A stretch of 64,000 nucleotides of DNA from an uncultured Acidimicrobiales bacterium (GTDB taxonomy: Bacteria; Actinomycetota; Acidimicrobiia; Acidimicrobiales; SZUA-35): positions 1-64,000 of the forward strand of contig CALKTH010000001.1 of assembly GCA_937997485.1 (NCBI GenBank), read 5' to 3'. Positions within the stretch are counted from its first letter, which is position 1; every line of letters starts with the position of its first letter. The notes below the pieces were generated by a model. That model was given only the letters and a program-made list of their open reading frames with translations, made no database searches and was not told the DNA's origin. The position numbers were made by a program, and so were the translations under genes. Positions 1,159 to 7,333 of the stretch are shown one piece after another.

Positions 1159-2808
1159 TCAGGTTGGGTCGACAGCGCCGCGGGCGATCGCTGACAACGC
1201 CGTCAGACTCGGCACGAAGAAGTAGTCGCCGCCTCGGGTCTCAACGAACTGAGGAATGCCGGTACAGATCTTCGGCACCTCCATGCCGTCAGGATCAACC
1301 TCAAACGTCATTCGAGCGCGAAGCGGATCGATGTCCTCATCCGGCCAAGATGCAAGCAGTGCGTCCTGGTCGTTGCCCAACCGGAAGTCGTTGCCGAAGT
1401 TCATCCACTGCTGCTGAACGAACTCGAACTGGCGATTGATACTCGCTCCAATGGCCATGAAAATGATGCCGTGGTCTCCGTTATCAACGCTGCGATCGCT
1501 TGAATCCCCGTAGGGAAGGCCGCGGCGGGCAATGCGTCGGCGATTGACGAGCGCGCCCGGCGTACTGAACGCGTGGTCTTGACCGAACTCCAACGAGCCA
1601 CGAGGGTTCGCTCGCCGACTGTGCGCTCCGACCGGGCAGGACTCTCCAGCAATGTCCTCTCGATAGTCGAAACCCGATTGCTGTTCCTTCAACTCGAGAT
1701 GACGCTCGGTCGCCGCGGCACGTTGCGTTGGCGTGGCAGTCTCGTCGAAACGATCAGCCTTCGCCTGCTCAAGTTTGGCGTTGAACGCATTCGCCTCAGC
1801 TTCGGTCGGGAACGATGCGAGCGGTGCGCCGTTCGGCCAGCGACCGACCAGCTTCGCCCGAAAGAGGTTCTCTTCCATCGAGAGCTTGGCTGCTTCGCTC
1901 GCTGCGTACCGATCGAACGTCGCCACGTTCTGATGGAGCTTTCGATAGACGAGATACGTGCCATTCTTCGAGAGCGTCGAAGGCACCGGGGCGGCCGGGT
2001 ACTCCAGTGCTTCGTCGGTGTGACCGAGAAGGAGTTCGCCGGTGGCAAGTGGTGCCCAACCCGCGTCCGTCGCTGGAGACGAGTCACGGAGTCGCTTCCC
2101 ACCACCGATGACGTTCGAGCTCCGACTCCCCGAATCCTTGTAGTAGGGATCGCTGATCCCATCGGTGTAGCCAAAGTGCTCCTTCGGCCCTGGCGTGCCG
2201 TGCTCATCTCGGAGTGCGGCGCCATCCTGGAAGGCAGCGTCCGCTCCCCCGGCGGATCGGTGGCCAGCAAGTTGTTGCACACCAGCGGAATCGCCGGCAA
2301 CGTCATTCGCAGCGCGAGCAGCCAACCCCACCTCCTCGTAGCGCTGAGCTAGGGCGTCGGAAGATTCGGCATTGATCGTGACCAACAGGTGCACGGGTTG
2401 CTGTCCATCCTCGGTCTGCCACACCGGATCCCAGTTCTTCGGAGCGCTTGCGCCAACATCACCCAGAATCGAGGCGCGCGCTCGCATCCCCATCACGAAT
2501 TCGTCGGGAAAACTCAACAGCGATCGCTCAGGCACTCCCAAGCGTCGGAGACCCTCATACGTGAGCGCCACGTTTGTTGTTGATGGCGGCTGCTTTGTGC
2601 CTTCCTCTACGACGCCGGACTCCGACCACGGGACCGAGGTCGTCAACATCGGAACCAACAACTTGATGAAGGTCCGGCCCGCAACTGCGGCGTTGATGCG
2701 GTAGGTAACGTAACGCGCCACCGGGAAGCCGTACCGTCCGTAACCCTTAATGATGTTGCCCTGAACGTCGTGGAGGTCCACACCACTCCGGATCTCGAAC
2801 GTCGTCAT
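1159..2808 (-). CDS. DyP-type heme peroxidase
   Basis: 549-residue dye-decolorizing-type peroxidase. The family hallmarks are present: the distal GxxDG motif as GYTDG (residues 213-217, acid-base Asp216) and the proximal heme-ligand region AHSRRANPRG (His396, followed by the conserved Arg residues). No Tat or Sec signal is visible, and no encapsulin-targeting tail is evident, so it is probably cytoplasmic. The start ATG at 2808 was chosen over an in-frame ATG at 2853 because it has a GAGGA ribosome site about 7 bases upstream and forms a 4-base ATGA overlap with the stop of the upstream gene. It is the last gene of a four-gene leftward operon whose other members are uncharacterised. The physiological substrate cannot be told from sequence. 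Confidence 0.92.
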   Translation of the reverse strand: MTTFEIRSGVDLHDVQGNIIKGYGRYGFPVARYVTYRINAAVAGRTFIKLLVPMLTTSVPWSESGVVEEGTKQPPSTTNVALTYEGLRRLGVPERSLLSFPDEFVMGMRARASILGDVGASAPKNWDPVWQTEDGQQPVHLLVTINAESSDALAQRYEEVGLAARAANDVAGDSAGVQQLAGHRSAGGADAAFQDGAALRDEHGTPGPKEHFGYTDGISDPYYKDSGSRSSNVIGGGKRLRDSSPATDAGWAPLATGELLLGHTDEALEYPAAPVPSTLSKNGTYLVYRKLHQNVATFDRYAASEAAKLSMEENLFRAKLVGRWPNGAPLASFPTEAEANAFNAKLEQAKADRFDETATPTQRAAATERHLELKEQQSGFDYREDIAGESCPVGAHSRRANPRGSLEFGQDHAFSTPGALVNRRRIARRGLPYGDSSDRSVDNGDHGIIFMAIGASINRQFEFVQQQWMNFGNDFRLGNDQDALLASWPDEDIDPLRARMTFEVDPDGMEVPKICTGIPQFVETRGGDYFFVPSLTALSAIARGAVDPT

Positions 2809-3467
2809 GAGTGAGTCCTCGCACTTTCGAGTGTTTGAGCGCCCGGCCGCCACGTCGGACCGTCCAATTTGGTGACTTGGACGCGCTCCGCAAACGACAG
2901 GAAGGCGCTACGGAGTTCGTCGTCGCTCGCCCCTTGATGGCTGGCCACGAAATCTCCGAACTCTTGCTTGAGATACAGACCCTTCAGCTGTTCGGCGAGC
3001 GGTCGATCGTTGGAACCGTTGAAGAGGAACGTGTTCGAGACTTGGCATTTCTTGATGTAGTCCACGAACGACTCGGCGCTATTGACACTGCTGCCGAAGG
3101 CAACGCAGTGCTGCCAGATGAGTCGGACCTCAGGTTCGATGTTCTCCCACATGCCCCGGAGGTACGGCTCGAGCTCACCGTGGAAGTCGCTCCCGAAGAA
3201 CAGGTACTGCGACTTCAGGTGCTCCTGTTGCGAACGCCCTTCGTAGAAGACGTCCTTCAGAATGTACAAGCGAGCGAGATACGTGTTTGGAACTCGGGCC
3301 ATCGGACTCCGCTCGTGGGAATCGAGTCCCGCGAGGGTCTCCCGCACGACCGCTTCGTATGAGCTGTTCCGACCGGGGGCCGTTCCCAGTTTGATCGGGC
3401 ACAAGGCGGTCAGCCCGTAGTGCTTGCTACTCTTGGGAAGCCTGCCGCCGCCACCTGCTCCTACCAT
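2805..3467 (-). CDS. Uncharacterised DyP-operon protein (paralogue of next gene)
   Basis: 220-residue protein, no signal peptide or membrane segment. It begins with a Gly-rich tail and has a core (about residues 60-215) that aligns by eye with the core of the gene upstream: a hydrophobic strand, a stretch FGSDFHGELEPYL, then an Ile/Leu-Trp and a G near residue 125, then YI near 138. That pattern (strand, aromatic/Gly turn 'FxG', helix 'xxYl', Trp) recurs in proteins I have seen beside heme peroxidases, but I cannot name the family with certainty. It starts one base into the previous stop (TGATG) behind a strong AGGAGG site and ends in an ATGA overlap with the DyP gene, so the proteins are probably made in fixed ratio. 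Function unknown; a partner or substrate-delivery role for DyP is inference. Confidence 0.8.
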   Translation of the reverse strand: MVGAGGGGRLPKSSKHYGLTALCPIKLGTAPGRNSSYEAVVRETLAGLDSHERSPMARVPNTYLARLYILKDVFYEGRSQQEHLKSQYLFFGSDFHGELEPYLRGMWENIEPEVRLIWQHCVAFGSSVNSAESFVDYIKKCQVSNTFLFNGSNDRPLAEQLKGLYLKQEFGDFVASHQGASDDELRSAFLSFAERVQVTKLDGPTWRPGAQTLESARTHS

Positions 3468-4108
3468 CAGAAGGCCTCCTGACGTGCTTGGTTCTGGACG
3501 GCCTCGGTCGCAAGGCTGACGATGACGGACTCATCGAGTCGAGAGATGTCGTCTTGATGTTTGCGAATGGTGTCGTCGTATGCCTGCCGGAACTGCTTCG
3601 GCGACATTCCAGAGGCGCTTCCGGCGAGGGTGACGAGCGAGTCTCGGACCCGTTGAGCAGCCTTCACGTCGTTGCTCGCCGCCAGCGGGTACGCGCTGTA
3701 GTAGTGATCCGTCGGGATCGAGTTGGCGTTGATGTAGGCGTGAAACGGTTCGATAGGAACGGAGTTCGGGAAGCCGACGTTCTTGAACCAGAGCATGTCC
3801 AAGCCGGTTCCCAACGACATCGAGAAGGAATCGATGTACTGGTCCCAGTTGCCGTTGAAGTTGCTGAGGAAGCACTCGTAGTGGTGACGCAATTCCTCCG
3901 TTGGTTGGCCTTCGCCCAGATTCGGAAAGTCCTTGGGAGCGATGATCACCCAGCGGGCGTAGTGGATAAGCGACAGCGTCTGCAGGCCCCGAAGCTTCTT
4001 CTTGAAGAACCGCGGTAGAACCCAGAAGATGATCCGATTCTCTATCCCCTTCCGGCGTGTCGGAGTCCACACGTTCAGCGCCTGGGCTTTCCCAGCGACG
4101 TTCGACAT
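3467..4108 (-). CDS. Uncharacterised DyP-operon protein
   Basis: 213-residue cytoplasmic protein. Residues 45-60 form a hydrophobic strand (LIHYARWVII) and residues 78-95 read CFLSNFNGNWDQYIDSF, matching the equivalent region of the downstream gene with one gap, which suggests that the two arose by duplication. The strand-turn-helix order would suit a ferredoxin-like alpha/beta fold, which is also the fold of DyP domains, but this is only pattern matching. An Arg/Lys-rich segment (residues 18-41) with aromatic residues precedes the core. The AAAGGA site lies upstream of ATG 4108, and a 23-base gap separates it from the gene before it. Function unknown. Confidence 0.78.
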   Translation of the reverse strand: MSNVAGKAQALNVWTPTRRKGIENRIIFWVLPRFFKKKLRGLQTLSLIHYARWVIIAPKDFPNLGEGQPTEELRHHYECFLSNFNGNWDQYIDSFSMSLGTGLDMLWFKNVGFPNSVPIEPFHAYINANSIPTDHYYSAYPLAASNDVKAAQRVRDSLVTLAGSASGMSPKQFRQAYDDTIRKHQDDISRLDESVIVSLATEAVQNQARQEAF

Positions 4109-4131
4109 GGTGAGGCGTCCTTTCTCTTGAC

Positions 4132-4998
4132 CTAGAGCGAGCCGCGCGCCGAGGGGCGCGTGGTGAGCATGTAGCGAGCGATCTTCAAGATGATCAGGAG
4201 GCCGCTCTTGTTCTTCATGTACGCCTTGTCCGTGGCGACAGGATCGATGTGGGACGGAGCGTCTTCCATGAGCCCAGTCATCTCACCCGGCAAGATCGAT
4301 CCGTCACGCAGCTCATGCCGTCGATCGACGATGCTCTGGAAAAACGGCTGCTCATGGTTGAAGAAGTCGCGGAGCAGTTGCGGCGTCACGTGCTTGACCC
4401 CTGCGTGGTCGAGCTGTCCGCAGAGGATGATGAAGCCTTGCCATTGGATGTGAGCCCGAAACCGAGCCCCTGTGCGATCCTTGAAGGAGGTCGCCGTCCG
4501 CTCACCGTTCCACGTCGAGTACGGCTTCGAGTGCTGCGACTGCACGAAGATCCCCAACACGTGCTCCGTGATTCGATTGTTGGGCGTGCCCGCATCCTCA
4601 GCGATTGCTTCGAGATGATGGATCAGTTTGATGAGCCGGTCCTGATCGACACCATCGTCGACGTTGAAGACACGGCTCGAATAGGCGCCTTGCCCCCAAC
4701 CTCGGACGCACGACTCGATGTCTGTCGTGTTCTTGTCCGAGTGCGTCTGATCCGTGATCCCGTTGCGGGCGAGCCAACTGATCAAGGTCGCCCAAGGCGT
4801 TCCCGCTAGCCCGAGACCGTCGGGTCCGAAAATGTTGTCTGAGGACGCCTTCGTGACCACCCCGTTGCCGTCGCCAGAAGGCCAGAGATGGCGTTCGAGG
4901 CCAGCTCGAAGAGACGCTGCAGGCGCAGCCTTTCCGCTCGAGATCACAAGTCTTCCCTCCAGAACCGCCCATGCCAGGTTCAGTGTCAGACCGCTCAT
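4132..4998 (-). CDS. Uncharacterised protein, first gene of DyP operon
   Basis: 288 residues, no signal peptide and no obvious membrane segment. I do not recognise a family. The sequence has the look of a soluble enzyme or binding protein: a Trp- and Gly-rich N-terminal third, the segment NNRITEHVLGIFVQSQHS in the middle, and a basic C-terminus (KIARYMLTTRPSARGSL). It is the first gene of the leftward unit that ends with the DyP peroxidase, and conserved linkage of these four genes would be the best evidence that they work together. Start at ATG 4998 is the only good methionine; the ribosome site is weak. Confidence 0.72.
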   Translation of the reverse strand: MSGLTLNLAWAVLEGRLVISSGKAAPAASLRAGLERHLWPSGDGNGVVTKASSDNIFGPDGLGLAGTPWATLISWLARNGITDQTHSDKNTTDIESCVRGWGQGAYSSRVFNVDDGVDQDRLIKLIHHLEAIAEDAGTPNNRITEHVLGIFVQSQHSKPYSTWNGERTATSFKDRTGARFRAHIQWQGFIILCGQLDHAGVKHVTPQLLRDFFNHEQPFFQSIVDRRHELRDGSILPGEMTGLMEDAPSHIDPVATDKAYMKNKSGLLIILKIARYMLTTRPSARGSL

Positions 4999-5105: not shown

Positions 5106-5603
5106 TCACGCACGCATCGTCAGTTCATCGATGAACGTCACGACGTCGCTGAGTGCCGGGAACTGGTCAACATCGGCCGAGGGGATCAGATCCACGACGA
5201 TGAACTCGCCTGCGACCTCGATCGTCGAGGAAAAGAGTGCGTCGTTCCCTCCCCGGACTCGATGAGGACCGAGGGTCCGAACGATGAAGACAACCGGGTG
5301 GCGATCGGTTCGAGATCCACCGCCGCTCCGAAGCCCAGAACCGCTCGGCTTGTTCCGTCGAGTCGGATATCAACGATGCGGAGCGTCGGGAAGATAGGCC
5401 CGAGGGTTTTCAACGGGCGGTGGCCGTTCCTGTCGCTTGCGCAAGGCAACGAACGCGTCATGTACAGCATCCTCCGCTCCCCGCGGATCGATCGACCTGC
5501 TGTAGGTCACCAACTGGGACCGAAAGTCTGCGACCAGGGCGTCAAAGCTCTCGTTCTGGTCTGCCGTCAACGGTTCCTCTTGGATTGGGTTGTCCACCAT
5601 CAC
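5106..5603 (-). pseudogene. Broken ECF-sigma-like gene with two frame changes
   Basis: From ATG 5603 (AGGTG site upstream) a frame reads 77 codons with an ECF sigma region-2 flavour: DALVADFRSQLVTYSRSIDP, then AEDAVHDAFVALRKRQ and VENPRAYL, after which it stops at 5370. In sigma factors NPRAYL is followed by more helix. Here the protein-like signal moves to the -strand frame that is open about 5400-5250 (RIVDIRLDG, then GFGAAVDLEPIATRL) and then returns to the first frame (EVAGEFIVVDLIPSADVDQF to DVVTFIDELTMRA, stop at 5106-5108). Two compensating shifts, either real decay or sequencing error, explain this; alternatively it is a sigma fragment next to a second broken gene. Antisense reading frames here are shadows. 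Confidence 0.5.
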
Positions 5604-5689: not shown

Positions 5690-7333
5690 TCAGGAGGAGA
5701 AGTGTTCGCTCTCCAACTGCCGAGGCAACGTGATTTGGATCGATACGTCCAGCGCTGCGGCGAGGAGCCGAGATCGTTCGCGAGCGGCGTAAAGCTCGAG
5801 GTCGAGATCGGCCGCCTCCTCGCCGACGGGTTCGATCGTGAGCATCTTCGACTCCCGGTCGATGAGCGCTCGGACCGAGGTCACCGTGGCTGCGTGACGC
5901 CGATCGAGACCGATGGCAAGGCGGAGTATTCCTGCCAGCAGCCGCACGAGCTGACGATCGTCCTTCGACAGCGCCGCAAACTCCGCGTGCTTCTCCGAGG
6001 GGTGACTCTTGCGGTGGTAGCGGGCGACGGTGGCGATCAGCTCGATCTCCTGCTCGCTGAATCCGGTCAGCTGCTCGGAGTTCCGAATCACGTAGTAGCT
6101 GTGTTTGTGGTGGCTGGAGTGACTGATGAAGAGCCCGACGTTGTGGACGATGGCGGCCGCTTCCAAGATCTCTCGGGCGTGGTCATCGAGCCCGTGCAGT
6201 CGACGAGTCCGGTCGAAGATCTCTGCCGAGAGATGAGCCGTGTGTTCAGCGTGCGCCGGATCGGGGTCGAGCTGGCGGGCTAGGCGCAACAAACTGGAAC
6301 GCCTCGGATCGTCGAGCTCCCTTCCCGTGGCGCGCCCGAATCGGTCGAACAACACACCTTCGCGGAGCGCGAATTCAGAGATGGTCATCTGCTCGATCTC
6401 GAACGCTCGGAAGACCTCGTCCAGCAAGATCGAGCCAGCCACGATGATGTCCACTCGCTTCGTATCGAGCCCGCTGATCTGGTTGCGCTCGGCGGTGTTC
6501 TTCGTGGTGACCGACTCGACAATGTCGGCTAGCTCCGCAGCGCTGAAGACCACACCATTCATCTGCCGAGCGCCCTCACCTCGAGCAGCAACCGCCATGG
6601 CCGCAATGGTCGAGGCCGTGCCGGAGCTGCCGATGGCGATCTCGGGTTGGTGGCCCATCAGCTCGTAAGAGACGGGTGCGAGCGCAGCGCGAACGTAGTT
6701 GCGGCATTCCTCAACCGCCTCCGGATCCACCGCGCCATCACCGTCGACGATCCCATCAAAGAACCGCTCGGTCAGCCGAATGGCTCCCAGCTTCATGCTG
6801 CGCGCCTCGAGCGCTTCGTCGCCCTGGCCGACGAGAAACTCGGTGCTCCCGCCGCCAATGTCAACCAACACCAAACGCTTGTCGAACACTGGCAGCGCAA
6901 GGAGCACACCAACGTGGATGAGACGAGCCTCCTCGAATCCGCTGATGACCTCCACCTCAATGTCGAGTTCGTCTCGGGCCCGGTCAAGGAAGTCGTTCTT
7001 GTTCGTGGCCTCCCGCACCGCGCTGGTAGCGACGGCAACGAGATCGACCTCTCCGAAGCTGGATGCGACCGCTGCCATGCGACCAAGGGCGGAGATACCG
7101 CGCTCGATGGCCTCGGGTGCGAGCTGTTTCATCTCGCCGCCGCCCTGACCCAGGCGCACCATTTCCTTCTCACTCGTGAGCATGTCGAAGCCACCGTCGT
7201 CGGTCATGCGGGCGACGACAAGGTGCATCGAGTTGGTGCCGATGTCGATCGCCGCCTTGATGGCAGCACCGTTCGGCTGGCCGTTCGAGTCTGAGGCTGC
7301 GTTTTGTGCGGGAGCGTTGTCCGTCGACGTCAC
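5690..7333 (-). CDS. ppx: Ppx/GppA family exopolyphosphatase / pppGpp phosphatase
   Basis: 547 residues from a GTG start at 7333. The actin-like phosphate-binding loop AIDIGTNSMHLVV is at residues 28-40, the catalytic glutamate is in GFEEARLIHVGV, and the second loop is VDIGGGSTEFLVG. The C-terminal half carries an HD-like domain (AAIVHNVGLFISHSSHHKHS), giving the full two-part Ppx layout. It should hydrolyse inorganic polyphosphate and/or pppGpp in the cytoplasm. The reading frame is open far upstream to 7720, but that extension overlaps prmA on the other strand and lacks conserved motifs, so it was rejected. It is divergent from prmA with only 33 bases between the starts, so both promoters must overlap or lie within the genes. 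Confidence 0.92.
   Translation of the reverse strand: MTSTDNAPAQNAASDSNGQPNGAAIKAAIDIGTNSMHLVVARMTDDGGFDMLTSEKEMVRLGQGGGEMKQLAPEAIERGISALGRMAAVASSFGEVDLVAVATSAVREATNKNDFLDRARDELDIEVEVISGFEEARLIHVGVLLALPVFDKRLVLVDIGGGSTEFLVGQGDEALEARSMKLGAIRLTERFFDGIVDGDGAVDPEAVEECRNYVRAALAPVSYELMGHQPEIAIGSSGTASTIAAMAVAARGEGARQMNGVVFSAAELADIVESVTTKNTAERNQISGLDTKRVDIIVAGSILLDEVFRAFEIEQMTISEFALREGVLFDRFGRATGRELDDPRRSSLLRLARQLDPDPAHAEHTAHLSAEIFDRTRRLHGLDDHAREILEAAAIVHNVGLFISHSSHHKHSYYVIRNSEQLTGFSEQEIELIATVARYHRKSHPSEKHAEFAALSKDDRQLVRLLAGILRLAIGLDRRHAATVTSVRALIDRESKMLTIEPVGEEAADLDLELYAARERSRLLAAALDVSIQITLPRQLESEHFSS

Follow-up and report, generated by a model that had tools for sequence, protein, structure and literature searches.

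A class-V-type DyP peroxidase and two paralogous partner proteins are encoded in a widespread bacterial gene cassette

Gene content of the locus

The DNA analysed here (the window) is a stretch of 64,000 nucleotides from contig CALKTH010000001.1 of an uncultured Acidimicrobiales bacterium (assembly GCA_937997485.1). Near its start it encodes a dye-decolourising peroxidase (DyP) and three further proteins, P1, P2 and P3. All four reading frames reported by a first-pass annotation are present on the minus strand, in the order P1, P2, P3, DyP. P1 (4132..4998, 288 amino acids (aa)) is an open reading frame of no known family and an optional fourth module. P2 (3467..4108, 213 aa) is the first partner of the peroxidase, and P3 (2805..3467, 220 aa), a paralogue of P2, is the second. 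The DyP gene (1159..2808, 549 aa) encodes a class-V-type peroxidase recognised by the Pfam domains DyP_N and Dyp_perox_C.

The genes had been described as coupled by overlaps. This holds for the last three: the P2 stop and P3 start share one base (A) in a TGATG (3465..3469, minus strand), and the P3 stop and DyP start overlap in an ATGA (2805..2808, minus strand). P1, however, does not overlap P2 but lies close to it, at a distance of 23 bp. For DyP the ATG start giving 549 aa is favoured; an alternative GTG at 2853 is less likely because the ATGA overlap would be lost. Purine-rich stretches precede the P2, P3 and DyP starts, and the G+C content of the four genes is 58-61%, compared with 64% for the window. 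Upstream of P1, at 5370-5603 on the minus strand, lies a fragment of an extracytoplasmic function (ECF) sigma factor, truncated so that no more than region 2 is left (match to Pfam Sigma70_r2 at E 0.012, which is below the cut-off). The frame ends right after this region, and the fragment is probably a remnant.

The DyP peroxidase

The window DyP matches both Pfam domains above their curated cut-offs (DyP_N, PF21105, E 5.3e-8; Dyp_perox_C, PF20628, E 2.5e-6). Its GXXDG motif reads GYTDG (213-217). D216, H396 and R398 are kept in 97/97 aligned DyPs of the clade and R428 is Arg in 95 of them, the other two being gaps. The best match in the PDB is the Deinococcus radiodurans DyP (DrDyP; 8re3/8re2, E 4e-47), and alignment with 8re3 places H396 and R428 at the positions that the DrDyP paper (PMC10820274), in its available part, names as the haem-ligand His and the distal Arg; the same paper describes DrDyP as class V. 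Against a profile of the clade, class-V-type DyPs score 250-506 bits and DyPs of other classes 0-39 bits. By sequence, the window DyP is thus of the class V type (former C/D), not P or I, and its predicted catalytic residues are intact. It is the sole class-V-type DyP in the genome.

The N-terminus of the protein (MTTFEIRSGVDLHD), read by eye, has no twin Arg and no feature resembling a twin-arginine translocation (Tat) signal or a signal peptide. The encapsulin family PF04454 has no match in the window genome, whose assembly is 92.8% complete, so the first-pass annotation was right in reporting neither an export signal nor an encapsulin, and the enzyme does not qualify as encapsulin cargo. 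Neighbours of the efeUO type are likewise absent at this DyP, which is flanked by P1-P3, and it does not classify as EfeB or class I.

The P2/P3 partner family

P2 and P3 had been proposed to be distant paralogues of each other, and the comparison bears this out (BLASTP 24% identity over 150 aa, E 3e-5; profile-profile probability 99.7). Neither they nor P1 match any Pfam or NCBIfam model even at E <= 10, which agrees with the earlier view that P1 belongs to no recognised family. When 69 P2 members were compared with Pfam, no convincing match was found; the best (E 0.0075) came from a single member and the families hit were unrelated. Judged from sequence, P2 and P3 are one protein family that no model of Pfam or NCBIfam recognises, and those of its members that were seen with an annotation are labelled hypothetical.

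The two proteins have in common an H-x-x-R motif followed by an F-x-S-N-F-x-G-x-W-x-x-Y block. The Arg (R52 in P2 numbering) is kept in 82/82 P2, 81/81 P3 and 7/8 one-copy relatives, and the His (H49) in 65/82, 51/81 and 7/8, respectively. An AlphaFold2 model of P2 (predicted local distance difference test, pLDDT, 67) has a beta-alpha-beta-beta-alpha core (E9-17, H21-34, E51-56, E76-84, H88-98). VIA matched its N-terminal part to the dimeric alpha/beta barrel proteins 7byu, 3hfk, 3hds and 3bn7 with Z 3.6-4.4, which is below the trust limit, a Foldseek search with the model gave nothing significant (E >= 1.1), and one homologue matches ABM at E 0.051. The modelled core is in line with a dimeric alpha/beta barrel (ferredoxin-like) fold, short of proof. 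The idea that P2 arose as a copied half of DyP was also considered and found unsupported at the sequence level, as P2/P3 and DyP profiles show no sequence homology.

Distribution of the cassette

A scan of GTDB genomes with the P2 alignment returned 592 matching stretches, 532 of which encode relatives, and the best 80 loci were analysed; a single-sequence P2 scan of genome contigs had given no match. These loci (L numbers; G numbers denote genomes) all contain P2 by construction of the search. Gene presence was counted by direct BLAST, and greedy gene calls, which miss genes in high-GC loci, served only for spotting neighbours. P3 was found in 79/80 loci at E 1e-6 (in L072 only at 1e-4) and DyP in 79/80, the contig of L039 ending inside P3. 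A strict test of order and strand (P2>P3>DyP) was passed by 78/80 loci, and the two exceptions are this contig end and this weak P3. The loci span Acidobacteriota, Pseudomonadota and Gemmatimonadota, with the reservation that some of them, L039 and L079 included, are metagenome bins that may carry a wrong title. In Granulicella the three genes sit on a plasmid.

P2-P3-DyP is therefore a widespread cassette in many bacterial phyla, and the gene-neighbourhood check supports the proposal that the products form one system. The four-gene operon of the first-pass annotation has to be redrawn: P2, P3 and DyP are the core, while P1, found in three genomes, is a rare optional module.

Linkage of the partner family to one class of DyP was sampled in two ways. 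Nine plasmid DyP loci were drawn from 81 plasmid records with a relative, and in 9/9 a single P2-like gene (164-248 aa) lies directly upstream. The encoded proteins match a joint P2/P3 profile with E 1.7e-14 to 9.3e-4; the only other match in that range is a further family member by sequence (L104 6746-7267, E 2.3e-4), and the next unrelated frame is at E 1.9. This second P2-like gene of L104 (6755-7267) lies downstream of the Sinorhizobium chiapasense DyP and adjoins a NIPSNAP-family gene (6359-6682); hemA (5-aminolevulinate synthase) and a DUF4331 gene are nearby.

When sampling started from DyP, 16 class-V-type loci were found in 396 genomes of the phylum to which the window belongs, and at 11/16 a P2-like gene lies no more than 1.5 kb away. 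L149, one of the others, is truncated where its contig ends. Near DyPs of other classes in the same phylum a P2-like gene was found at 0/28 loci, after exclusion of L129 and L130 as repeats of class-V loci (Fisher p 5.7e-7, uncorrected for kinship). P2 itself was matched in 4/396 of these genomes and lies beside DyP in all four. The partner family is specific to class-V-type DyPs. Within this clade it does not hold that DyP mostly occurs without the partners, nor that the partners fall into unrelated families. Chance neighbourhood would have to produce the order seen in 78/80 loci, the partner at 9/9 plasmid loci and the class-specific split of 11/16 versus 0/28; nothing was found in its favour and it is extremely improbable. 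The operon arrangement is not a chance one and recurs across phyla. As a separate observation, the class-V-type DyP shared by L156 (5327-7018) and L150 looks exported, given its Tat-like N-terminus, and there is no P2-like gene in its vicinity.

Gene fusions and the state of the haem

In rhizobia (Sinorhizobium) P2 and DyP form a single fused protein, a 1423-aa protein of Pararhizobium is a P450-P2-DyP fusion, and in L038 DyP is fused to a cytochrome P450. Several further sequences of this kind were seen. The P2-DyP fusion of Sinorhizobium medicae (L008 11914-13599) seems to be about 100 aa short in the N-terminal domain of DyP, ahead of GXXDG, and P2 would therefore adjoin the catalytic half of DyP. 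In a relative from Rhizobium ruizarguesonis (L009 10963-14027) the DyP part lies in two frames and is apparently broken. Four IMG/VR contigs (L094-L097) carry, by eye, a P2-DyP fusion-like gene with P450 and glutaminase-like genes; they look like bacterial chromosome more than virus.

One alternative is that P2 and P3 deliver or insert haem, or otherwise mature DyP, without being subunits of the working enzyme. The invariant Arg and mostly conserved His on one strand of small alpha/beta proteins would suit such a role, as would the hemA gene near the L104 cassette. According to the available part of its description, DrDyP produced on its own is in a low-spin state and shows no activity at physiological pH (PMC10820274). 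It thus has haem, but in an inactive state, which is what a maturation defect might leave; it also fits a missing partner. On the other hand, DrDyP made without the partner still binds haem (PMC10820274), and a permanent P2-DyP fusion suits a structural subunit more than a transient chaperone. Haem handling is accordingly considered unlikely, and P2 and P3 are, on the sequence evidence, most likely obligate subunits of a complex with DyP in the cytoplasm.

The fourth gene

Beside the core, the 80 loci contain a P450 (37), a catalase-like gene (8), P1 (2) or none of these (33), and never two together. The usual fourth partner elsewhere is thus a P450 or a catalase-like protein, and not P1 as at the window. 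The P450 count includes an upstream, weak match in L067 (99 bits), two genes cut by contig ends (L037 and L043) and a short fragment (L051). Among the 33 loci without a fourth gene, nine have less than 3 kb of downstream sequence and L039 ends inside P3.

The haem Cys of the cassette P450 (H-x-C) is kept in 41/41 sequences. A standard P450 I-helix carries an acid-alcohol pair, but 39/41 have Pro at the site of the acid. This would be expected if the cassette P450 needs no activation of O2.

A glutathione S-transferase (GST)-like gene follows the P450 in 12/80 loci and a permuted papain-like gene (C92; LRAT/NlpC-type) in 4/80. Patatin and FadL genes flank the P450 in L040, L041 and L045, and a Tle1-like phospholipase is found in L014 and L016, the two loci looked at. 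Phospholipase genes are thus present in five loci and FadL in three; the window has no P450. The GST-like protein (L050 12206-12985 and equivalents) regularly follows the cassette P450, with a weak match to GST_C (E 2.4e-5).

These genes bring up the possibility of a cassette for tailoring an aromatic or secondary metabolite, or for breaking down xenobiotics. It would account for the P450 and GST-like pair after DyP in the 12 loci, and many aromatics are oxidised by DyPs, as stated in the accessible part of a 2021 review (PMC8197335). Yet no recurrent biosynthetic genes lie beside P2-P3-DyP, and many acidobacterial loci consist of the three genes only, with about 6 kb of downstream sequence. 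Such a function seems improbable.

Only one of the eight catalase-like genes, that of L079, shares the strand of DyP. At the plasmid loci a gene annotated as catalase lies beside DyP in 5/9, and one of the five also has thioesterase and patatin genes. The catalase-like proteins form a divergent family (L079 10947-11969, L013 4809-5945, L106 6299-7384) that matches Pfam Catalase below the cut-off or not at all; the AH motif of the distal side is kept in 7/7 aligned proteins. One search for catalase-like genes was empty, with no positive control run alongside.

A general operon against H2O2 or oxidative stress, in which the proteins are co-regulated and act separately, would explain catalase-like genes at five plasmid loci (by annotation) and at eight of the 80 others. 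It would not lead one to expect strict pairing of small partners with one DyP class, the fusions, or a P450 as the commonest fourth gene. Moreover, the matches of the catalase-like proteins to Pfam Catalase stay below its cut-off, and at physiological pH DrDyP performs poorly as a peroxidase, as reported in the available part of its description (PMC10820274). This explanation is given a low probability.

P1 as a replacement module

P1 is known from three genomes, that of the window and two of Nitrosomonas (loci L070 and L081), and always lies beside P2-P3-DyP. The window genome alone has it among 148 genomes of its class, 2/16 genomes reached through the loci have it, and a search of 398 Pseudomonadota and 100 family genomes found none besides the centre genome itself. 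P1 had no match in the PDB or to the P450, catalase-like, DyP and P2 profiles. The window P1 is 60% identical to the Nitrosomonas P1 over 259 aa, whereas P2, P3 and DyP are 43-49% identical between the same loci. In a quick DyP tree, computed without bootstrap, the two P1-bearing Nitrosomonas loci nest among P450-bearing Nitrosomonas loci and the window DyP pairs with L079 (support 99). The cassette P450 scores 814-917 bits in the sister genomes G508 and G518, whereas it is missing from G506 and G507, the genomes with P1 (best match 30 bits and none); the window genome has only distant P450s (<= 38 bits). The tree placement, the absence of the P450 and the identity of P1 together suggest that the cassette acquired P1 on two or more occasions and that P1 stands in for the P450. 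It would be a rare case of one enzyme apparently swapped for an enzyme of another family in the same operon slot.

Proposed mechanism

The interpretation that we consider reasonably probable is that P2-P3-DyP is one cytoplasmic enzyme system, with P2 and P3 probably binding DyP as subunits and with an interchangeable fourth enzyme. The two small alpha/beta paralogues would shape or gate the haem pocket of the class-V DyP, set the state of the haem, and give access to a bulky peroxide or another substrate. DyP would oxidise this substrate by means of peroxide, and the product would go to the enzyme of the fourth slot, an apparently peroxide-using P450, a catalase-like protein or, at the window, P1. 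The likeliest class of substrate would be lipid or fatty-acid hydroperoxides. This is a weaker inference from neighbouring genes, and such hydroperoxides are perhaps the substrate because patatin or Tle1-like phospholipase, FadL, GST-like and permuted papain-like genes join the operon at some loci.

Several results weigh against this interpretation. No P450, catalase-like gene or P1 is found in 23/80 loci despite at least 3 kb of downstream sequence, and the fourth enzyme is therefore not essential. The divergent class-V-type DyPs of L150, L151, L153 and L155 have no partner nearby. The P2 model is middling and has no significant fold match, and the predicted fold of P1 (pLDDT 43) gives no function. 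The lipid link comes from few loci (patatin with FadL in 3/80, Tle1-like in two).

A broader proposal, doubtful though conceivable, is that cytosolic class-V DyPs of bacteria are the catalytic subunits of a so far unrecognised multi-protein haem system. This system would be active only with P2-like subunits and would pass a lipid, once oxidised, to a second enzyme that can be exchanged. Bacteria would then have their own equivalent of the dioxygenase-P450 cascades of fungi and the cyclooxygenase (COX) cascades of animals, and P1 would be a new type of enzyme that took the place of the P450.

Comparison with known systems

No account of a P2-P3-DyP cassette was found in the open-access literature searched. 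In the available part of the published DrDyP work (PMC10820274) the words 'operon' and 'partner' do not occur, and 'partner' and 'P450' do not occur in that of the 2021 DyP review, which leaves open what bacterial class V DyPs do physiologically (PMC8197335). A Leptospirillum operon paper (PMC9080137), judged by its accessible portion, is unrelated to the cassette. The window locus combines an enzyme of a known family with a multi-protein setting for which these searches gave no description, and class-V DyPs have probably been studied so far without their natural partners. If P2-like subunits do belong to the working enzyme, earlier assays were made on an incomplete one. The Deinococcus DyP and its P2-like neighbour make the idea directly testable.

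DrDyP (8re2/8re3, class V, former C) is the closest solved relative. Like the window DyP it is cytosolic and has a P2-like gene directly upstream (protein WP_051618841.1), its own gene beginning 1 bp after it. It differs in having one partner and not two, a catalase-like gene in place of P1, and Met where GXXDG ends in Gly.

Other DyPs also have dedicated partners. EfeB in EfeUOB (described in the accessible part of PMC8197335) and DtpA with GlxA are encoded in conserved operons, but they are class I, exported and have metal-linked partners, whereas the window DyP lacks an export signal and its partners are unrelated to theirs. Encapsulin-DyP nanocompartments likewise provide a dedicated protein partner (PMC8197335, same portion), unlike the window genome with its lack of an encapsulin match.

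The proposed hand-over between two enzymes has parallels in fusion proteins, here taken from the available parts of the papers cited. Fungal linoleate diol synthases, which are dioxygenase-P450 fusions, join a haem enzyme with an O2-independent P450 (PMC13049297), and catalase-related allene oxide synthase/lipoxygenase fusions have a catalase-like enzyme as one member of the pair (PMC5617202). In these the first enzyme is a COX-like dioxygenase or a lipoxygenase, whereas the cassette has a DyP with unrelated small partners and an inferred substrate.

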